Assembly (NCBI RefSeq): GCF_002159915.1
Contig: NZ_NFJP01000003.1
Coordinates: 124,001-188,000 of the forward strand
DNA from: Gordonibacter sp. An230
GTDB lineage: Bacteria; Actinomycetota; Coriobacteriia; Coriobacteriales; Eggerthellaceae
DNA length: 64,000 nucleotides
Direction: 5' to 3'
The notes under the pieces were generated by a model that saw only the letters and a program-made list of their open reading frames with translations, searched no databases and was not told the DNA's origin. Position numbers and translations under genes: made by a program. Positions 30,562-40,561 of the stretch are shown one piece after another. How positions within the stretch are numbered: position 1 is the stretch's first letter; each line of letters opens with the position of its first letter.

Positions 30562-32001
30562 TCAATTGCGAAGCAGAGGCGTTGCGGCCACTTCCCGCAG
30601 ATAGAAAGCAGATCGCACAGGCGCTCGCCCCGACTTCGGGCCCGATCCCGGATCGAGGCCGGAACTCGCTTCCGTCCGATCCCCCGGCGCCTCGGTTTCC
30701 GGCCCCGCTCCCGCCGCCTCCGCGCCGCGCTCCGAACCCGCCCCCTGCCCGGGTTCCGCCCCCGGCCCCGCAGCCTCCCGCTCCTCCACCACGTTCGCGC
30801 TCTCGGCCAGCACGATGCCGGCGCATGCGCGTGCGAGCGCGTCCGCGCAGGCGAGCGGCAGGGCGGCGCTTGGCACCTCCGCGTCGAAACCGCACGGCAC
30901 GCCGGCCCGCGCGGCCCACGCCCGCGCGCGCCGCGCGTCCTCGCCGAACGCCTTCGCGCACTTCAGGAACCGGTCGCCCTCGTCTTGGCTCATCCACGGA
31001 TGCGCGGCGCGCAGATCGACGTCGGCGAAGAACGCCTTGTTCTGCTGGAAGATCTGCCCCGTGTTCTTGTTGTCCGAGCTGCAGTAGTGCACGCCCAGCC
31101 GCAGCCCTTCGCGGCTGGCGAACTCCATGAGCGCCAGCGCCTCGGCCTCGCTGCCCGCCACAGGCACGCCGCCGCCGTACCAGTAGTCGTAGAGGTACTT
31201 GAAAGGGTGTTTCCGCAGCTTGAAGCCGCGCTTCGCGAACTCCGCGCCGTTGTGCAAAGGGAAACAGAACTCCAGCAGGTTCACGCCGTGCGCGCCCGCG
31301 GCGTCCGAGCGCCGCAGCAGCTCCTCCATCTGGCCGCGCGACCCGGGGATCACAGGCACCTCCACCACCACATCGGGCAGCACGGCCGCCGCGCGCTCCA
31401 TCAGCGCGTACACCCGCTCCTGTCCGTCGTCGGCATCGGGCGGCTTCACGCTGAAGCGGATCTCGGTCAGCCCCGCATCGGCAAGCGCCCGCAGCCCCGC
31501 GTCGTCCAGCAAGTCGCCGCTCGTGTACAGGCGCGTGTGCGCGCCGGGGTACAGCTCGCCCGCGCGCCGCAAAAACGCCTCCACCTCGCCGGGATAGAGC
31601 ATCGGCTCGCCGCCGGTGATCGCCAAGCAGCGAAACCGCGCGCCCGCATCGTGCGCCCGCTCCAGCTCGCGCACGATATCGCGCTTGTGGGTGCGGAAGT
31701 AGTCGTAATGGTCCTGATTGGGATTGAAGCAGAAATAGCAGCTCTTCGTGCATTTCAGGTCGATGAAGAACGTCGCCGTCTCCTCGCCGGTGCGGCACGC
31801 CTCGCATGCCGGCGACAGCCAGTTGCGCCACAGCGAGAAGCCGCCGTTCTCGCAGCGGCACCCGCACGCGGCGGCCACGCGGGCGCGCTCCTCGCGCGGC
31901 GCGCTCTCCTCGCGCTCGAAGGGAACGCCGAACGCCTCCACCGCGGCTTCGAAATCGCGTTCCGCCTCGTCGAACGCCTCCGCGTACTCCCGAAGATCCA
32001 C
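30562..32001 (-). CDS. Radical SAM protein linked to the TorD/DMSO reductase genes
   Basis: The 479-residue protein has the radical SAM cluster motif CTKSCYFC (Cys84, 88, 91) and the SAM-binding ITGGEPMLYPGE. Before it lies a second Cys set, CGCRC (46, 48, 50) and CEAC (66, 69), that could hold another metal site. After residue 410 the sequence is a low-complexity Gly/Ala/Glu tail. GTG start with GGAAGGGG upstream. It follows the TorD gene by 42 nt. The reaction is unknown; context suggests maturation of the reductase or its cofactor. Confidence 0.8.
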   Translation of the reverse strand: MDLREYAEAFDEAERDFEAAVEAFGVPFEREESAPREERARVAAACGCRCENGGFSLWRNWLSPACEACRTGEETATFFIDLKCTKSCYFCFNPNQDHYDYFRTHKRDIVRELERAHDAGARFRCLAITGGEPMLYPGEVEAFLRRAGELYPGAHTRLYTSGDLLDDAGLRALADAGLTEIRFSVKPPDADDGQERVYALMERAAAVLPDVVVEVPVIPGSRGQMEELLRRSDAAGAHGVNLLEFCFPLHNGAEFAKRGFKLRKHPFKYLYDYWYGGGVPVAGSEAEALALMEFASREGLRLGVHYCSSDNKNTGQIFQQNKAFFADVDLRAAHPWMSQDEGDRFLKCAKAFGEDARRARAWAARAGVPCGFDAEVPSAALPLACADALARACAGIVLAESANVVEEREAAGPGAEPGQGAGSERGAEAAGAGPETEAPGDRTEASSGLDPGSGPKSGRAPVRSAFYLREVAATPLLRN

Positions 32002-32043
32002 CCCGCGCCCCTTCCTACGAAGCCCTCAGCCCTCTTGAAGCCC

Positions 32044-32916
32044 TCAGCCCTCTTGCTCGGCCAGCTCCTCCTCAAGCCGCGCCGCCGCCGCGCGGTCCAA
32101 GCGCGCGAACGCGGCCAAAGCCCCGGCGAACGCGGCGTAAAACGCGCGCCCGTCCTTCTGGATGACCGTGCTGGCAAACGCATCGATCCACGTCAGCAGG
32201 TGCTTGTCGAGAAAGCGCCCTTGCACGGCCAGCGTCTGGCGCACCTCGTCGTCGCGCCCGTCGGCGTACGCCTCGTACGCGCGTTGGCTCGTGCGCCCCA
32301 GGTAATCCATCATAGCAGCAATGTGATCGTCGGGAAAATGCCTCTCCGCCCGCAGCTTGAAGCCCGCCTCATGGTAGAACGAGCGCACGTCGAGCGTGCT
32401 CTCCTGGAACACCATCGACTCCTTGCCAACGTACGGCGACTCCCACGGATGCACGTAGGACGCCCCCGGCACCTGGAACAGCTTCGCGAAGTCCGAGGCC
32501 AGCGCCTCGATGAACGCCTCATCGCCTACCGATGCGGCGTTTTCGCGCACGCACGCGCACGCCTCGTCCATGCATACCGCCGCGCTGCGCCCGCTCGAAC
32601 CCACCTGATGGCCGGCGACCTGCCGAAACTCGTCTCGGGTCAGCTCGTCCCGCACGGCCTCGAGCACGCCTCGCCCCTGCTCGCCGAACATCGCCGCAAC
32701 GCCCTCGCGCGCAGGCTCGCTTCCGAACACCACGTGCAGCAGGTTGTACAGGTACGCGCGGCGGGCGAGCATCATCGCCGTCGCGCATTCGCGCCCGTGG
32801 CCCTGCTCGCGCTCCTGTTCGCTCCCCTGCCCGCGATCCTGCGAACGTCCGCTTTCGCGCTCTTGCGAACGTCCGCTTTCGCGCTCTTGCGAATGCCCGC
32901 TTTCGCGCTCCTCCAT
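32044..32916 (-). CDS. TorD/DmsD-family chaperone with a repeat N-terminus
   Basis: TorD-family proteins fold around and escort molybdenum reductases before Tat export. The all-helical domain starts near residue 50 (ARRAYLYNLLHVVFGSEP) and includes FAKLFQVPGASYVHPWESPYV, the usual signature region. The first 45 residues are tandem ERESGRSQ units, encoded by three 24-bp repeats. GGAAAGGGG precedes the ATG. The gene lies downstream of the dms operon and upstream of the radical SAM gene. Confidence 0.88.
   Translation of the reverse strand: MEERESGHSQERESGRSQERESGRSQDRGQGSEQEREQGHGRECATAMMLARRAYLYNLLHVVFGSEPAREGVAAMFGEQGRGVLEAVRDELTRDEFRQVAGHQVGSSGRSAAVCMDEACACVRENAASVGDEAFIEALASDFAKLFQVPGASYVHPWESPYVGKESMVFQESTLDVRSFYHEAGFKLRAERHFPDDHIAAMMDYLGRTSQRAYEAYADGRDDEVRQTLAVQGRFLDKHLLTWIDAFASTVIQKDGRAFYAAFAGALAAFARLDRAAAARLEEELAEQEG
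32843..32914. repeat. Three tandem 24-bp repeats at the torD-type start
   Basis: Units 32843-32866 and 32867-32890 are identical (start GAACGTCCGCTTTCGCGCTC); 32891-32914 differs at a few positions and contains the start codon. Being a multiple of three, copy-number change would lengthen or shorten the protein without breaking frame. Confidence 0.9.
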
Positions 32917-33312: not shown

Positions 33313-33891
33313 CTACCAGTTGACCTCCCGGTACCTCTCGTCGAAGGCGCATTCCTTCGCCTTGATGAGGATGTTCGGATGCGTCTCATCCGGCGAGGGC
33401 AGAACGGCGATGCGCCCCTCGTCCAAGTCGCCGCCGAATTCGGCGCGCAGCTCGTCGATGTCGCCGAACTTGAGCGCGCGGTTCGGACACCCGGCCACGC
33501 ACGCCGGCTCGCCGCCGCTTTGGCGCAAGCCGTAGCATCCGTCGCACTTGCCGGACACGCCCTGCTCGGGGAAGAACTTCGGCTGGCCGTACGGACACGA
33601 CATCACGCACATGCGGCATCCGATGCACTTGCTCTGGTCTTGGATGACCGTTCCGTCCTCGGCCTTGTAGATGGCCCCCGTGGGGCAGTTGCTCAAGCAG
33701 ACGGGATCCTCGCAATGGTTGCACCCGAAGGAGTAGCTGTACCCCTGCACTTCGGGGAACCGCCCCACGGTGTACGTGCGAACCTCGCGGTACAGCGTCC
33801 CCACCTCAAGGCGGTTCTTGTCCTTGCACACCACCTGGCACGCACGGCAGCCGATGCAGCGCGTCATGTCAAGGTAAAATCCAACAGTCAT
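33313..33891 (-). CDS. dmsB: DmsB-type four-cluster ferredoxin subunit
   Basis: The 192-residue electron-transfer subunit has four [4Fe-4S] cysteine sets: CIGCRACQVVC, CNHCEDPVCLSNCP, CIGCRMCVMSCP and CDGC with ACVAGCP. It passes electrons from the membrane subunit to the molybdenum subunit. It has no signal peptide, so it should be exported with the Tat-bearing DmsA-type partner encoded 15 nt upstream. Confidence 0.93.
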   Translation of the reverse strand: MTVGFYLDMTRCIGCRACQVVCKDKNRLEVGTLYREVRTYTVGRFPEVQGYSYSFGCNHCEDPVCLSNCPTGAIYKAEDGTVIQDQSKCIGCRMCVMSCPYGQPKFFPEQGVSGKCDGCYGLRQSGGEPACVAGCPNRALKFGDIDELRAEFGGDLDEGRIAVLPSPDETHPNILIKAKECAFDERYREVNW

Positions 33892-33906: not shown

Positions 33907-36534
33907 CTAGCCGAGGTCGACGATGCGCATGGGTTGGTCGCAATCGTCTTCCAGCGCTGCGCCCGCGTACTTCTCGAAGTTGCAGTTATTGTTGTTGTAG
34001 CTGGTCACCCCGCAGCCGGAGATGTCGTTGCCGATGAGGTAGTTGTCGGCGCCCGCCAGATCGATGCCCGTCTCCTCGTCCACGTTGACCCACGACCCGT
34101 GAGGGATGCCCACCTGGCCGGGGCGCATGTTCTCCAGGCAGCAGGCCTTGCGCAGCACCTCTCCGTACTTCGTCCACACGCGCACGGTGTCGCCGTCTTC
34201 GATCCCCTTCTCGGCGGCGTCGGACGCGTTGAGGAACACCGGGTTCGGCCAAGCCTCGCGCATCCAGGGGCAGTTGTCGAACACGGTGTGCGAGCGGCGG
34301 AAGTAGTGCGGGTTGAACATGAGGTAGGGGTACTCGCCCGCCTCGCCGCCGATCTCCCCGTTTTTAAACGTGGTCTCGTAGCCGATGGACGGCACGATGT
34401 ACTCGGGATACGGCTGGTACGTGCGGTCCGTCAAGCCGATGCTGTTGTACAGGTCGGCCTTCGCCTGACTGGTGATCTCGAACTTTCCGCTCGCGGTGTC
34501 AAGCGGGTTGGCGTCGGGGTCGGCAATGAAGTCGGCATATCCCAGAAACGCGCTGTATTGGTCGCCCAGCGCGCGCTTCACCTGGTAGCCGCCGTTCTCG
34601 ATGAACTCCTGCAAACCGACGCGTCCCGTCTGGGGCTTGCCTTCGACGCCCCACCGCTCGATATCGTCCTCGGTGATGGAGATGAGCGGCTCGTATGCGC
34701 CGGAGCCGTCCTCCTTGACGACCGTCGTCCCCGCCAGCTGGTTGAAGAACGCCTGCTTCTCGCTGATGGGATAGACCGTCGCAGGATCGATCCCCAGCGC
34801 CTCGAGGATGAGCGCGTTGATCTCCTGATCGGTCTTCGCCTCGTACAAAGGCTCGGTCACCTGCGAATAGCAGAACAGGAACTCGCGGTTGGACGCATCC
34901 AGGCCACCTGGCACCTCCCATTTCGTGGTGACCGGCAGCACGATGTCGGAATACCGCGCCTGCGTGTTCATGAACTGGGCTTTCGCCACCACGAAATCCA
35001 TTTTGCGGTGCGCCTCGATGCCCCGCTTCATGTTGGGGCCGGTTTGCAGATAGGCGTTCTCGTCATGGACGATGCAGTGGATGTCGCACGTCTTATCGAC
35101 GCCCGCCTGAGATCCATCGCCTGCGTACCAATCTCCCACCTGGCGATACGTGCCGGAGAAGCACGCCTCCCACACTTGAGGGCCCGGAATGACGCCGTCG
35201 ATGGGGTTCTCCAGGCTGGGAAGCCCCGTCTTGCCCGCCTTCACGAGGGCGGGGCCGCCGTTGCCGGCGTTCGCATGGTAGTTGTTCGCAGTGCAGTTGC
35301 CCGGTTTGCCGAAGTGGCCGCCCATCGCGCCAAGCGTCATGAACAGCTGAGGGACGTTCTCCGAGCCGTTGCAGCGCGCCGCCGCGAAGTTGTGGAGCAT
35401 CCACACGTTGCGGGTTTTGCCGATCTCGCGCGCGAAATACGTGATCTGCTCCATCGGCACGCCGCAGATGTTCGATGCCCATTCAGCCGTTTTCGGCTGG
35501 CCGTCGTAGGCGCCTTCCACGTAATCGCGGAAGTTCACGTCCTCTTTGAGGTCGGCGGGTTTGTGATCGGCGTCGAAGCCCACCGTGTACTTATCGAGGA
35601 AGCCCCAGTCGATGACGTCGCCTTCTTCGGCATCGAGGCGAAGCATCTCGGAAGCCACGCCCAGCATGAACGCCGTGTCCGTGCCGGTGCGGATGGGAAT
35701 CCAGTACGCGTCGAGCATCTGGGCGGAAGCCGTGTAGATGGGGTCGACCGTGATGAACTTGACCCCCGCCTCCTTGGCGCGAAGGTAATGGTAGCTCGGC
35801 GTGCCTGGAGCCGACCAAGCGGGATTCGACGCGTAGAACACGATGGTGTCGGCGTTGAGCATGTCGGTGCGATCGTTGCACGTGCCGGCGTCGGTGCTGG
35901 GGATGCCGATGGTGGTATCCGGATTCAGCAGGTACGAGCCGTGGGACGTCGAGTCGGCGACGGACGTATGGCCCCCATAGGCCAGAAGCGGCGCGAACGC
36001 ATAGCGCGAGCCGTAGCTGCCGAGGAGAAACGCCTGGTTGCCGTACTTCTCTTTGATGGACTTGAACTGGCCGGCCACGTAGTCTATGGCTTCATCCCAG
36101 CTGATGCGCTCCCATTCGTCTTTGCCGCGCAGCTCGCCGTTGGGGTTCTCGGGCGACCAGCTCTTGCGCTTCATGGGGTATTTCAAGCGGTCCGCGCCGA
36201 AGCATTGCTGCTGTTGGGCCTTGCCGCGCACGCAGCCGCGCTGCTGCGGGTAGTCCGGGCTGTCCTCGTGCGTGTCGTCCGTCTTCTGGCGGATGACCGC
36301 GCCGTCTTTCACCATCACCTTGTTCATGCAGCGCCCGCCGCAGTTGTGCCAGCATGCGGCGGCAACCCATGTGCCGCCGTCAGCCGGATCGGTGGGCAGC
36401 TCGTGCTTGTCAGCGGCGTCGAGGCTCGCTTCTGCGGAGCACCCCGTCGCCGACAGGGCGGCAGCGCCCACCGCCACCGCAGCGGCGGCCCCGAGAAAGC
36501 CGCGACGCGATATGTTCTTCGATTCGATGCTCAC
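33907..36534 (-). CDS. dmsA: DmsA-type molybdopterin oxidoreductase, Tat-exported
   Basis: The 875-residue catalytic subunit of the DMSO-reductase superfamily binds bis-MGD. It starts with a Tat signal, SRRGFLGAAAAVAVGAAAL, ending SATGC, which could also be a lipobox. A [4Fe-4S] site follows: CWHNCGGRC with a distant Cys in RGCVRGK. EWERISWDEAIDYVA is a family hallmark. Start GTG (SIESKNISRR) has AAGGGGGAA upstream. The substrate (DMSO, TMAO or an organic compound) cannot be assigned; gut relatives encode many paralogues. Confidence 0.92.
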   Translation of the reverse strand: MSIESKNISRRGFLGAAAAVAVGAAALSATGCSAEASLDAADKHELPTDPADGGTWVAAACWHNCGGRCMNKVMVKDGAVIRQKTDDTHEDSPDYPQQRGCVRGKAQQQQCFGADRLKYPMKRKSWSPENPNGELRGKDEWERISWDEAIDYVAGQFKSIKEKYGNQAFLLGSYGSRYAFAPLLAYGGHTSVADSTSHGSYLLNPDTTIGIPSTDAGTCNDRTDMLNADTIVFYASNPAWSAPGTPSYHYLRAKEAGVKFITVDPIYTASAQMLDAYWIPIRTGTDTAFMLGVASEMLRLDAEEGDVIDWGFLDKYTVGFDADHKPADLKEDVNFRDYVEGAYDGQPKTAEWASNICGVPMEQITYFAREIGKTRNVWMLHNFAAARCNGSENVPQLFMTLGAMGGHFGKPGNCTANNYHANAGNGGPALVKAGKTGLPSLENPIDGVIPGPQVWEACFSGTYRQVGDWYAGDGSQAGVDKTCDIHCIVHDENAYLQTGPNMKRGIEAHRKMDFVVAKAQFMNTQARYSDIVLPVTTKWEVPGGLDASNREFLFCYSQVTEPLYEAKTDQEINALILEALGIDPATVYPISEKQAFFNQLAGTTVVKEDGSGAYEPLISITEDDIERWGVEGKPQTGRVGLQEFIENGGYQVKRALGDQYSAFLGYADFIADPDANPLDTASGKFEITSQAKADLYNSIGLTDRTYQPYPEYIVPSIGYETTFKNGEIGGEAGEYPYLMFNPHYFRRSHTVFDNCPWMREAWPNPVFLNASDAAEKGIEDGDTVRVWTKYGEVLRKACCLENMRPGQVGIPHGSWVNVDEETGIDLAGADNYLIGNDISGCGVTSYNNNNCNFEKYAGAALEDDCDQPMRIVDLG

Positions 36535-36553: not shown

Positions 36554-37327
36554 CTAAGCCACCGTGCAGGTTGCGTAGAACGCGTAACGTGAGATGCCCA
36601 CGCCGACGATCGCCGCGACGCAGATGGCAACGGCGACGGCGCGCTTGCTCGCGATCCTCGGCGAAAGCGCCACAAGCACCGCCGAGACGACCGGCGCGAC
36701 AACAAGCGCGGCGATCTGGCTCACCGGGTCGAAACCCTCGTTCGAGAACGCGACGGCCTCCAGCACAAGGCCTGCGGCGAGCGCCGCGTTCACGATGAAT
36801 GAAACGATGCGCAGCACCGCGCCGTCGTAGCCCTCCGAGCCGAGCACGGCGAACAGCGCCAAGCCCATGGCCAGGTCGCCGGCCAGAAACGCAAGGATCG
36901 TCGCCGGTGCGTCGCACCACACCGCGATGCCGTACACGTCGGTGTAGGCCACGCCCATCATGACCATGCACACCACGCCGACGACCGCCCCCGCGACGCG
37001 CAGCCCGTAGGGGCTGTCCTTGCGCACGAGCGTGACGACGAGGTCGATCACGGCCAGCATCATGAAGCACCCCGCGACCAGGACCTCGCGGATCATGCCG
37101 GAGCCGAAATTGACCGTCCCTCCGATCACCGACTGGATCGCCCGCGGAATGCTGTGCACATGCGTGGCCGCCGCCACGAGCCCCACGGCGAACAGAATCG
37201 CCACCACGAGGGGAACCAGCCACGGGCGCCCGCCTTCGCGCCGACGTCGCAGCCCCGTTTCGAACGCGTACGCGCCTGCGGCCACGCCTCCCAACATGGT
37301 GAACGCATACAGGGATTCAAGCCCCAT
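36554..37327 (-). CDS. dmsC: DmsC-type membrane anchor subunit
   Basis: A 257-residue protein with about eight hydrophobic segments and no cofactor-binding motif, as expected for DmsC, which oxidises menaquinol. The start is the ATG before GLESLYAF with GAGGAGG 7 nt upstream; the frame also opens at a TTG two codons earlier. It is the first gene of the operon, followed by dmsA and dmsB, an order that differs from dmsABC. Confidence 0.85.
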   Translation of the reverse strand: MGLESLYAFTMLGGVAAGAYAFETGLRRRREGGRPWLVPLVVAILFAVGLVAAATHVHSIPRAIQSVIGGTVNFGSGMIREVLVAGCFMMLAVIDLVVTLVRKDSPYGLRVAGAVVGVVCMVMMGVAYTDVYGIAVWCDAPATILAFLAGDLAMGLALFAVLGSEGYDGAVLRIVSFIVNAALAAGLVLEAVAFSNEGFDPVSQIAALVVAPVVSAVLVALSPRIASKRAVAVAICVAAIVGVGISRYAFYATCTVA

Positions 37328-37510
37328 ATCCAAGCCTCCTCTTCCCGCGCGCCCGCCTCTTCAGGCAAGCGCTCGCTTTGCAGCGCGCCTCCTCAGCGCA
37401 CACCATCGGAGCGTCCAAACGCGCGCAGCAGAGCCTCCGACGGCGTGCGCGCATGCTCGGACGCATGCTCTGTGGGAATTCGGCCGATCCCTCCATCGCC
37501 TATTATGGCA
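37328..37510. other. 5' region of the dms operon
   Basis: Contains CATAAT (minus strand, near 37507) as a possible -10 at 18 bp from TTGATT, with the operator dyad between them. The remaining leader of about 170 nt shows no further structure that I could identify. Confidence 0.45.
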
Positions 37511-37850: not shown

Positions 37851-38819
37851 CTAACGCTCGGGAGACTCCTTTCCGGACTCTTTCGCGAATCCCTCGCTGT
37901 AGGCGCTCGGCACCACGAGGGAGCTGCCGTTGTCCTGCATGCCCTCGTAGGTGAGGTGCATCTTGCGCAGCGACAGCGCGATGTCGTCGTACGAGTACGT
38001 CTCCGCCACCTCCTGCAGGATGGCCGACACGTCGCGCTCGGCCTCCATGAGCGCGATGCGCGCGTTCTTGCGGCACTCGGCCTGCGCCTCGAGCGACATC
38101 ACGCCATGCAGCTCCTTCGGGATGATGATGTCGCGGATCTCCACCGACAGCACCGTGATGCCCCAGTCGGTCACCTTCGCCTCAACGGCCTCCTGAAGCT
38201 CCTGATCCAGCTGGTGGCGGCGCATCACCACGTTCGACACCGACGCGCGCCCGATGGCGTCGCGCAGCGCCGTCTGCGCGGTCAGGGCCACGGCGAAACG
38301 GCAGTCCTCCACCTCCGTGCACGCTTTCTCCGGGTCCCAGATCATCCAGAACAGCACGGCGTCCACGTCAAGCGGCACGAGGTCGCTCGTGAGCGCCTCC
38401 TCCGCGCCGAACGGCGTGGCGATGGTGCGCTGGTCGACCCGCAGCGTGCAGAACTCGATGAGCGGTATGCTGAAGAAGATGCCCGGCCCTGCCAAGCGGC
38501 TGAACCGCCCGAGCCGCATGATCACCGCGCGCTCCCACTCCAGGCACACGTGCACCGACGACAGCACCGCCAGCCCCACGACGAGCGCCACGGCGATGGC
38601 CACCAAGCTCAGCGCTCCCGCCAGCGCGTACCACGCCCCCAGCACCGCCAAGAACGCCGCCAGCGCCAAAACCACCGTCACCATCACGGCGCCGTTGCGC
38701 GTGGCCTTCTTGCTGGGGTCGGACCGATAGGCGTCGGCGGCCACGCCGAACTCCATCTCCGAGCGACGGTACGAGTCGCGCTCGTCGCGCCCGCTGCGCA
38801 TCCTGTCACTTCTTATCAT
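37851..38819 (-). CDS. SPFH/band-7 (stomatin-like) membrane protein
   Basis: A 322-residue protein. Two hydrophobic segments near residues 44-86 anchor it; then comes the SPFH domain: ERAVIMRLGRFSRLAGPGIF, VDAVLFWMIWDPEKA and ALRDAIGRASVSNVV, with GITVLSVEIRDIIIP. A C-terminal coiled-coil region (EAQAECRKNARIALMEAERD) suits oligomerisation. It overlaps the GntR gene by 14 nt and is last in the NrfD operon. The role may be membrane-domain organisation; no protease (NfeD) partner is present. Confidence 0.88.
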   Translation of the reverse strand: MIRSDRMRSGRDERDSYRRSEMEFGVAADAYRSDPSKKATRNGAVMVTVVLALAAFLAVLGAWYALAGALSLVAIAVALVVGLAVLSSVHVCLEWERAVIMRLGRFSRLAGPGIFFSIPLIEFCTLRVDQRTIATPFGAEEALTSDLVPLDVDAVLFWMIWDPEKACTEVEDCRFAVALTAQTALRDAIGRASVSNVVMRRHQLDQELQEAVEAKVTDWGITVLSVEIRDIIIPKELHGVMSLEAQAECRKNARIALMEAERDVSAILQEVAETYSYDDIALSLRKMHLTYEGMQDNGSSLVVPSAYSEGFAKESGKESPER

Positions 38820-39207
38820 GGCTCATCTTCATCCTTCGAACGTGCTTGGACACCAGCTTGGGCACATCGTCGTACGCCATGCCCTCCTTGAGGCAGCTTT
38901 TGACAAAGTCCTCGACCAGCGCATCCACCCGGTCGCCCTCGCGGGGAAGCGAGTCCAGGTCGTTCACGAACACGCCGCTGCCGCGCACCGTCGTCACGTA
39001 GCCGTCGCGCTCAAGCCCCATGTACGCCTTGCTCACCGTGTTGTAGGCGATGTGCAGGTCAGCGGCGTATTTGCGCACGGTGGGCAGCTTCTCACCCGGC
39101 TTGTAGAACCCTGAGGTGATCAAATACTCCATGCGATCGCGCAGCTGAACCCACAGCGGCAGGTCGCTCTGGTCGCAGAATGAGAATGTCGGTGTTTCCT
39201 TCGCCAC
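38806..39207 (-). CDS. Small GntR-family (YtrA-type) regulator
   Basis: About 133 residues. The winged helix is PLWVQLRDRMEYLITSGFY, PGEKLPTVRKYAADLHIAY and NTVSKAYMGLERDGYV. A short C-terminal helix replaces the usual effector domain, as in YtrA. The start is uncertain; the GTG at 39207 has GAAGGAAG about 15 nt upstream and the frame is open further. Its place between NrfD and SPFH genes makes it the nearest candidate to bind the TTGTCGTGCGACAA sites. Confidence 0.85.
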   Translation of the reverse strand: MAKETPTFSFCDQSDLPLWVQLRDRMEYLITSGFYKPGEKLPTVRKYAADLHIAYNTVSKAYMGLERDGYVTTVRGSGVFVNDLDSLPREGDRVDALVEDFVKSCLKEGMAYDDVPKLVSKHVRRMKMSHDKK

Positions 39208-39227
39208 AATCGATGCCGTTGCTTCCT

Positions 39228-40154
39228 TCAGACCGCGGTTTGAACGCCGGCGTTCACGAGCACGAACCGCAGGCTGAAGCCGCCGACAAGGATGAGCGCC
39301 GCCATGACAGCGACGATGCCGCTTGCATGGTTGCGCCGGGCGAGCAGCGCGGACGTTTCGATAGCCAATGGCGCCAGTATACCGCATCCCACGAACCCCA
39401 ACCAAAACACCCAGGCTTGGTCGCCCGACAACAGCGCGTCGAACGGCCTGTCGTCACTCGCGGCGTTCACCGTGATCGCGCACATGAGCGCAGCGATGGC
39501 CTCGAGGACGATGATCGCCGCGTCAGCAAGGGAAAGCCCGCGAATCCAGGGGAGCGACCCTGCGCGGCTTTCGCACAGGCAGACGCCGATCAGGGCCACC
39601 GCGCATCCGCACGACAGCGCCGACAGCAGGAAGAGCACGGGCAGCCATGCAGAGCGCCACAAATCAACCGCGATGACGTTCTCCAGCAAAAGCCCCGTGT
39701 ACACCATCACGGCGATCGCCAATATCTCGCCTACCGCCTTCGCCGCCAACGCCGCTCGCTCCCATGCCGGCCCCAGCACCAGCGCAGACTCGGCAAGCGA
39801 AAGGGCGAGGCATGCCGCGAACAGCGTGAGAACGAAGGTGCCGATGGAGACAAAGCTGCTGGTCGGATACAGGAACAACAGGTAAAACGCCTCCGGTCGA
39901 CCGAGGTCGGCCAAAAGGCACAGCATGCCGACGACGAGCATCGTGAAGGCGATTGCGTAGCCCGTCGCAACGACGCGCCGCTGCGCCATCGAGCACGCGC
40001 GACGGCCGCGGCACCCGCGGGGCATGCGAGCAAGGCGCGGGTCGTTCGCATGCGAGAAAGCCGTGTGCAGGTCGATGGCGGAGAATACCGCGAAGCTCCC
40101 GGCGGCGGTGCCGCCGAGGAACAGGTACCACACGATGAGCTCGCCGAAGACCAC
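39228..40154 (-). CDS. nrfD: NrfD/PsrC-family membrane subunit
   Basis: A 308-residue polytopic protein. VVFGELIVWYLFLGGTAAGS is the family start; LLADLGRPEAFYLLFLYPTSS contains the conserved arginine-glycine loop after the fourth helix. Such subunits exchange electrons between quinone and an iron-sulfur partner. No ferredoxin or catalytic gene is adjacent, so it may serve another enzyme. The GTG start has GAGAGGGGGAGC just before it; longer frames would begin at or before the operator. Confidence 0.85.
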   Translation of the reverse strand: MVFGELIVWYLFLGGTAAGSFAVFSAIDLHTAFSHANDPRLARMPRGCRGRRACSMAQRRVVATGYAIAFTMLVVGMLCLLADLGRPEAFYLLFLYPTSSFVSIGTFVLTLFAACLALSLAESALVLGPAWERAALAAKAVGEILAIAVMVYTGLLLENVIAVDLWRSAWLPVLFLLSALSCGCAVALIGVCLCESRAGSLPWIRGLSLADAAIIVLEAIAALMCAITVNAASDDRPFDALLSGDQAWVFWLGFVGCGILAPLAIETSALLARRNHASGIVAVMAALILVGGFSLRFVLVNAGVQTAV

Positions 40155-40223
40155 CGCTCCCCCTCTCGCCGTCTCCGCCGTCCGCCGCGCCCGCCGGGAC
40201 GCGTTCCTGCACAGCATACCATT

Positions 40224-40247
40224 TTGTCGTGCGACAATCAGCACGAC
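40224..40247 (-). promoter_or_regulatory. Operator of the NrfD operon, same motif as the dms operator
   Basis: TTGTCGTGCGACAA (40224-40237), followed by ATCA and GCACGAC as a degenerate second half. On the minus strand the 17-bp string TGATTGTCGCACGACAA is shared exactly with the dms operator. A TATGCT lies 5 bp downstream on the minus strand as a possible -10. Confidence 0.75.
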
Positions 40248-40300
40248 GGTTCCACCGGTGCCCCGCTGCGTCTGCCGCGCTCCCTCCCGCGCCGTGCCCC

Positions 40301-40561
40301 CTACGCCGGCCTGTTCGCGTCCATGAACGCCTTGAGCTCCTGTTTGCGGGCAGGATCGAGCTCCTTTTTCGGGATGCCCTGCACTGCGCCCTCCAAGCCG
40401 TAGAGCATGTGCAGGCACACGCCGGGGTCGATGGCCTGCACTTTGAGCCATGCCTGCTCGGCCCCTGCGGCCATCAGGTCATCGGGCGTCGCGATGCCCA
40501 CCCGGGCAAGCCGCTCGGCTGCATAGGGGCCGATGTTCGGCAGATCGGTGAGGTTCGCCAT
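40301..40561 (-). CDS. TfoX C-terminal-domain protein
   Basis: An 86-residue protein that is entirely a TfoX_C (helix-hairpin-helix-like) domain: LTDLPNIGPYAAERLARVGI, TPDDLMAAGAEQAWLKVQAI and LHMLYGLEGAVQGIPKKEL. No TfoX N-terminal domain is present. The ATG has CGGAGAATATC upstream. Single-domain versions are common; the function is not known. Confidence 0.88.
   Translation of the reverse strand: MANLTDLPNIGPYAAERLARVGIATPDDLMAAGAEQAWLKVQAIDPGVCLHMLYGLEGAVQGIPKKELDPARKQELKAFMDANRPA

Follow-up and report, generated by a model that had tools for sequence, protein, structure and literature searches.

A radical SAM protein family encoded beside TorD-type chaperones in Eggerthellaceae, a probable helper in finishing exported molybdenum reductases

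We analyzed a 64,000-nucleotide stretch of DNA from Gordonibacter sp. An230 (contig NZ_NFJP01000003.1, positions 124,001 to 188,000), referred to here as the window. Its minus strand carries an operon transcribed in the order NrfD-GntR-SPFH-DmsC-DmsA-DmsB-TorD-radical SAM (Table 1). The radical SAM gene directly follows the TorD-type gene after a gap of 42 bases, and the DmsB and DmsA genes lie just upstream of this pair on the same strand. A first-pass annotation had described the radical SAM gene as following a TorD-type chaperone gene and as sitting close to a dms operon, and both descriptions agree with the open frames and with Pfam matches above cut-off in the two proteins: PF04055 (Radical_SAM) at 60.1 bits versus 29.5, and PF02613 (NarJ/TorD/DmsD) at 93.8 bits versus 22.2. 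The home genome spans 3.88 Mb in 73 contigs. Its matches to the molybdopterin oxidoreductase domain number 36 (some being pieces of one gene) and those to PF02613 number 23; the radical SAM family has two members in it.

Table 1. Genes and cysteine motifs of the operon, with positions in the window
Feature	Position	Strand	Remarks
Radical SAM protein	30562-32001	-	479 aa, GTG start, open frame; PF04055
C307 in HYCS, the third of the invariant extra cysteines; last residue of a late strand (303-307)	31081-31083	-	47 of 47 relatives
CTKSCYFC (C84, C88, C91), the CxxxCxxC radical SAM cluster motif	31729-31752	-	Invariant in 47 of 47 relatives
CEAC (C66, C69), which may ligate an extra Fe-S cluster	31795-31806	-	Invariant in 47 of 47 relatives; putative cluster
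CGCRC (C46, C48, C50)	31852-31866	-	Not conserved; alignment of 53 relatives
TorD/NarJ-type chaperone with repetitive N-terminal extension	32044-32916	-	290 aa, open frame; PF02613
DmsB-like electron-transfer subunit, 4Fe-4S ferredoxin domains	33313-33891	-	Best model TIGR02951, 200.3 of 214.1 bits
DmsA-like molybdopterin oxidoreductase, twin-arginine leader SRRGFLG, N-terminal cysteine cluster motif	33907-36534	-	Predicted GTG start
DmsC-type membrane anchor	36554-37333	-	Via homolog L041:3632-4627 (PF04976 DmsC, 47.1 bits)
SPFH/Band 7 (slipin-like) protein of cassette	37851-38819	-	PF01145, 108.2 bits
GntR-type regulator of cassette	38806-39405	-	PF00392, 45.7 bits
NrfD-type membrane protein of cassette	39228-40451	-	PF03916, 108.8 bits

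The DmsA-like protein passes the Pfam cut-offs for PF00384 and PF01568 and has its best model in TIGR02166 (DMSO/selenate reductase A subunit), below cut-off at 384.7 of 777.7 bits; the DmsC-type protein falls under every cut-off in the Pfam search. The chaperone scores below the NCBIfam cut-off of the TorD equivalog NF003442 (80.1 of 132 bits), and its gene begins with a repetitive, charged extension of ERESG(H/R)SQ units ahead of the chaperone domain (32820-32916, minus strand).

The NrfD-GntR-SPFH (slipin) cassette (37851-40451, minus strand) is found ahead of many DMSO-reductase-family operons, with or without a radical SAM gene. It adjoins the radical SAM gene in many loci, and we considered it as a specific partner of the radical SAM protein. 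This idea was dropped, since the cassette also adjoins home-genome DmsA genes that have no radical SAM gene beside them (L113, L115, L116, L121); it is therefore a general accessory.

By its cluster motif and its PF04055 match, the window protein belongs to the radical SAM superfamily. An AlphaFold model (mean pLDDT 87.9, pTM 0.85; residues 418-462 under pLDDT 50) predicts the partial TIM-barrel fold of that superfamily, and a fold search with the model returned 468 of 1000 chains at Z >= 8, the 50 listed matches all being radical SAM enzymes by title. The top matches are tied, NifB at Z 17.1 (209 residues, 3.1 Å) and a viperin-like protein at Z 16.7, and SuiB and SkfB are among the fold matches.

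The first-pass annotation knew of no named family with this gene context. In an NCBIfam search the window protein reaches no cut-off. Its best match by E-value is HxsC (TIGR03977, the maturase of the His-Xaa-Ser system) at 31.9 of 267.9 bits, a model that all 47 aligned members of its family match weakly but better than chance. Prokaryotic viperin (NF038283, 31.4 of 180 bits) and MoaA (21.3 bits versus a cut-off of 284.05) also stay below cut-off, and viperin, BtrN and MoaA are among the weak sequence matches. Two further models are matched weakly, TIGR04311 (putative metalloenzyme maturase) by 37 of 47 members and TIGR04317 (W_rSAM_matur) by 14 of 47 with a best E-value of 7.5e-9; the window protein itself matches neither at E 0.01.

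The shared HxsC match, together with SuiB and SkfB among the folds, is what might be expected of a RiPP-type peptide maturase with its precursor gene in the operon. We consider such a maturase very improbable and already disfavored. In the window protein Pfam finds Radical_SAM and a sub-threshold Fer4_12, with SPASM and leader-binding domains absent. Moreover, 2706 small frames near the gene yielded no group present in more than five loci in a BLAST comparison that is insensitive for short frames, and the 12 largest groups of small frames lie, by eye, against unrelated neighboring genes.

The alignment of 47 members contains 39 invariant columns, which include the three cysteines of the radical SAM motif (C84, C88 and C91) and three extra cysteines, C66, C69 and C307. 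A CGCRC...CEAC set had been proposed in the first-pass annotation to bind an extra cluster. The CEAC part stands, with C66 and C69 invariant, but CGCRC is not conserved: among 53 relatives, C46 and C48 do not exceed 40% and C50 reaches 53%. Absent from the earlier set were C307 and C246, the latter present in 81% of the 53 relatives. The proposal thus survives in changed form, with C66, C69 and C307 in place of CGCRC plus CEAC. By analogy, these three cysteines could accommodate a 4Fe-4S cluster in which one site is free or has a non-cysteine ligand; clusters of this type in MoaA and other enzymes are reviewed in passages of PMC5352715.

The window protein is a member of a well-defined family, which our searches met in Eggerthellaceae and, within the same order, in a few further families. 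It is 86% identical to its relative in Rubneribacter badeniensis and 75% identical to that of a Gordonibacter, both Eggerthellaceae; the group coded f1 in our genome set is called Eggerthellaceae here after the NCBI taxonomy of these relatives. Matches occur in 91 of 138 Eggerthellaceae genomes, and 85 genomes are counted as holding true members at E 1e-25 or better, a threshold that leaves out six weak ones (G004, G024, G027, G031, G070, G071). In a phylum sample of 396 genomes, every match better than E 1e-100 belonged to f1, and in the class (396 genomes) 75 matched at E 1e-30 or better, comprising 68 from f1 and 7 from other families of the same order. No match was found in 72,556 plasmid records.

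Three genomes of another actinomycetote family, f8 (G280, G301, G469), encode relatives that are shorter, with frames of some 290 residues (E 1e-27 to 1e-34), and that by eye keep CxxC, CxxxCxxC and a DCS motif resembling the surroundings of C307. These short proteins (L082-L084) stand alone with the same extra cysteines, and one lies, by eye, near rhodanese- and HPr kinase-like genes. Some matches to the radical SAM protein contain TGA or TAG codons, which we read as stops beyond the conserved core and not as selenocysteine.

Of 73 family members, 61 have a DmsA-type molybdopterin oxidoreductase gene within 5 kb (52 on the same strand, 9 on the opposite strand), and by a broader oxidoreductase profile such a gene lies within 5 kb of 14 of 20 members of a second set. 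Pooled, the two counts give linkage in 75 of 93 places, a rate that is not that of a random sample, the loci having been hand-picked, some in part for DmsA and some in part because of their long open frames. The linkage exceeds what chance would give: in the home genome, about 10% of the sequence is within 5 kb of a molybdopterin domain. A binomial comparison with this baseline is indicative only, since related loci are counted as if they were independent. A better control comes from inside the home genome, where both family members have a molybdopterin oxidoreductase gene within 5 kb and none of the 16 other radical SAM genes does; the same counts, 2 of 2 and 0 of 16, hold for TorD genes. Of the 73 members, 42 have a TorD-type gene within 5 kb and 31 have one within 1 kb (26 upstream, 3 downstream, 2 fused); in the second set, 7 of 20 have one within 5 kb. 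The radical SAM family is associated with two distinct groups of TorD and with several clades of DmsA.

Among the 138 Eggerthellaceae genomes, those with more molybdopterin oxidoreductase candidates have the gene more often: it is present in 2 of 14 genomes with 0-4 candidates, 5 of 26 with 5-9, 17 of 28 with 10-19, 38 of 46 with 20-39 and 23 of 24 with at least 40; these are first-look candidate counts, and genome size and completeness confound the trend. Wide occurrence away from any TorD or DmsA gene had been named in the first-pass annotation as the observation that would count against its reading, and such occurrence is found in part. An oxidoreductase gene is absent within 5 kb at 12 of 73 and 6 of 20 places, where one of the 12 (L047) is an artefact of a cut edge with DmsA 1.7 kb away and some others stop at contig ends. 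A TorD gene is absent within 5 kb at 31 of 73 and 13 of 20 places; genome-wide, only 3 of 85 carriers are without any PF02613 gene, as are 11 of 53 non-carriers. Seven of the second-set places come from other families of the order and show an oxidoreductase at three. Of these seven contigs, L178, L181 and L182 are shorter than 7 kb.

Several individual loci have arrangements of their own. At L065:5395-10027 a family member follows the genes for cytochrome bd oxidase subunits I and II (PF01654, PF02322), with no molybdoenzyme. Loci L046 and L047 (G037:C15) are two tandem copies of the operon, each including the radical SAM gene, with DmsA of two sub-clades. A second operon type encodes a small protein, f10, with two CX4CH-like motifs that resemble unusual heme c sites (L056:7642-8094, L055:8413-8820), partnered by a cytochrome b561-like protein (f21).

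Family members with other neighbors, for instance the cytochrome bd oxidase genes at L065, an orphan sub-clade, and the nine of 138 genomes in which the radical SAM gene was not found despite at least 20 candidate molybdopterin genes would all suit a general cytoplasmic enzyme, acting for example on RNA or on another protein and often hitch-hiking in respiratory operons. The linkage in 75 of 93 places and the TorD fusions described below argue against a general enzyme, to which we assign a low probability.

Two single open frames hold both a radical SAM and a TorD domain, L069:8320-10518 (G062) and L159:4533-6629 (G029), each above the Pfam cut-offs for PF04055 and PF02613. The fusions lie on separate branches, kept apart by starred forks of the tree, and near them stand relatives such as L057 in which TorD is a gene of its own immediately downstream. 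In each fused frame an internal ATG, preceded by a purine-rich stretch, is retained, and a separate TorD might therefore also be made. Because this ATG is kept and both genomes are draft assemblies (40 and 120 contigs), the fusions could also reflect an error in the sequence or the loss of a stop codon. No further fusion occurs among the 20 second-set places.

The association with different molybdoenzyme clades, the position of TorD on either side of the gene and the two TorD fusions most simply point to a helper working at the same stage as TorD, on the cytoplasmic apo-enzyme. Overall, the family is probably a helper that finishes exported molybdenum reductases before export. The first-pass annotation had offered maturation or peptide modification for the exported reductase; maturation fits best with the DmsA linkage, the frequent neighboring TorD gene and the two fusions, and peptide modification finds no support in the gene neighborhoods.

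Adjacency of the radical SAM gene and DmsA is not obligatory, as follows from orphan members and from a complete operon without the gene. Six of nine members of one sub-clade are orphans, and locus L136 carries the whole operon, with a DmsA at 82% identity, and no radical SAM gene alongside; the same genome has two elsewhere. Among the 30 DmsA proteins closest to the window's, a radical SAM gene lies within 5 kb in 21 and not in 9, and 8 of these 9 genomes have a copy elsewhere; for the next 25 DmsA proteins the corresponding numbers are 5 and 20. DmsA partners are spread over several clades, with 14 label changes versus 26.0 in shuffles over 78 rows, one of which (L046_15418) is labeled unpaired although its partner sits in L047.

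In the window clade, no DmsA residue separates 22 paired from 11 unpaired proteins at thresholds of 90% versus 45%, in a set hand-picked from fetched loci. A wider comparison of 43 paired with 35 unpaired proteins, two of them labeled by hand against the 5 kb rule, gave only five weak trends, and a subset of 12 versus 5 gave one proline. As neither comparison gave a convincing residue, we dropped the search for a specific target residue in DmsA, and a unique target in DmsA is weighed against because no residue discriminates.

The absence of a discriminating DmsA residue is what a change at the level of the cofactor predicts. The family might accordingly modify or load the bis-pterin cofactor, and not a residue, in a DmsA-specific late step; the sulfur step that FdhD provides for formate dehydrogenases is a model for a late step of this sort, and the action of TorD at the cofactor step counts in the same direction. 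Some close DmsA relatives have no neighboring radical SAM gene, though all but one of the nine genomes concerned hold a copy elsewhere, and the sequence gives no indication of pterin binding. We regard a cofactor-level role as quite unlikely.

A further reading takes the protein for a radical enzyme that acts on a small molecule within the reductase's pathway and would prepare the substrate of the reductase, use its product, or remodel a quinone or pterin, so that co-transcription would be metabolic and not physical. Its nearest solved folds, the tied NifB and viperin-like structures, its weak matches to viperin, BtrN and MoaA, the orphan members and the differing DmsA clades are all consistent with such an enzyme. 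MoaA (GTP 3',8-cyclase) is itself a radical SAM enzyme of molybdenum cofactor metabolism that, as passages of PMC5352715 describe, binds its nucleotide via a three-cysteine extra cluster. It is nonetheless hard to explain why a small-molecule enzyme would be fused to a chaperone of the apo-enzyme, and one radical SAM family is common to several DmsA clades that presumably have different substrates; we judge this reading unlikely.

We favor, with confidence just short of even, a dedicated radical SAM maturase for some of the Tat-exported enzymes of the DMSO reductase family. Given the established chaperone function of TorD-type proteins, TorD would hold apo-DmsA by its leader in the cytoplasm, and the radical SAM enzyme may dock on the TorD-DmsA complex. 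The enzyme is predicted to split SAM at the C84/C88/C91 cluster, and a putative further Fe-S site, made up of C66, C69 and C307 inside the barrel or close to it, would bind or oxidize the target. The expected product is a DmsA-DmsB complex with one extra covalent change, which would then be exported. That change would most likely fall on a residue of the catalytic subunit and less likely on the molybdopterin cofactor; we prefer a residue over the cofactor, DmsB or a small molecule, but no result decides for it. A bolder proposal, tentative and somewhat doubtful, is that TorD hands the apo-molybdoenzyme to a radical SAM enzyme with two clusters, which would introduce a so far unseen covalent change on the catalytic subunit or pterin and so give gut Eggerthellaceae reductases whose active sites are altered.

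If a subset of these reductases does need a radical-made modification installed via TorD, molybdoenzyme biogenesis would include an extra maturation step. Relatives of the home organism use molybdopterin oxidoreductases on catechols and polyphenols, according to passages of the literature, and the catechol dehydroxylases of gut Actinobacteria are described in part of PMC11887054 as hard to obtain from standard expression systems. A dedicated maturase could explain expression failures for that subset, and its gene would mark which reductases to test with the partner. The two natural TorD fusions make the maturase claim directly testable.

Literature searches, outside which most subscription journals lay, returned no paper joining radical SAM and TorD with Eggerthella, and none joining radical SAM, the DMSO reductase family, maturation and TorD. 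By term search, "maturation", "TorD" and "chaperone" are absent from the main text of a review on radical SAM and catechol dehydroxylase, and "radical" and "fusion" have no hits in the main text of a survey of the NarJ family (PMC4464133). Apart from that review, papers joining radical SAM with Gordonibacter were judged unrelated, as were those joining radical SAM with TorD and chaperones.

Among known systems, the TorD/DmsD/NarJ chaperones are represented here both by the window neighbor and by the domain of the fusions, which match PF02613. In TIGR04317 (tungsten cofactor oxidoreductase radical SAM maturase, or W_rSAM_matur, in NCBI's naming), as here, a radical SAM gene is predicted to mature a pterin-metal oxidoreductase. 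The partner of TIGR04317 is of the AOR type, unlike the partner here, which belongs to the DMSO reductase family and comes with a Tat leader and TorD. As given in an excerpt of PMC7145814, MaNifB has a K1 ligand, C30, 20 residues before its SAM cysteines and K2 ligands C264, C274 and C277 beyond them; by analogy, C66/C69 and C307 of the window protein lie at distances from C84 similar to those of the K1 and K2 ligands. The window protein differs from NifB in having only three extra invariant cysteines and a remote sequence. It also differs from MoaA, whose extra cysteines form a CX2CX13C motif at the C-terminus, in where its extra cysteines are placed.
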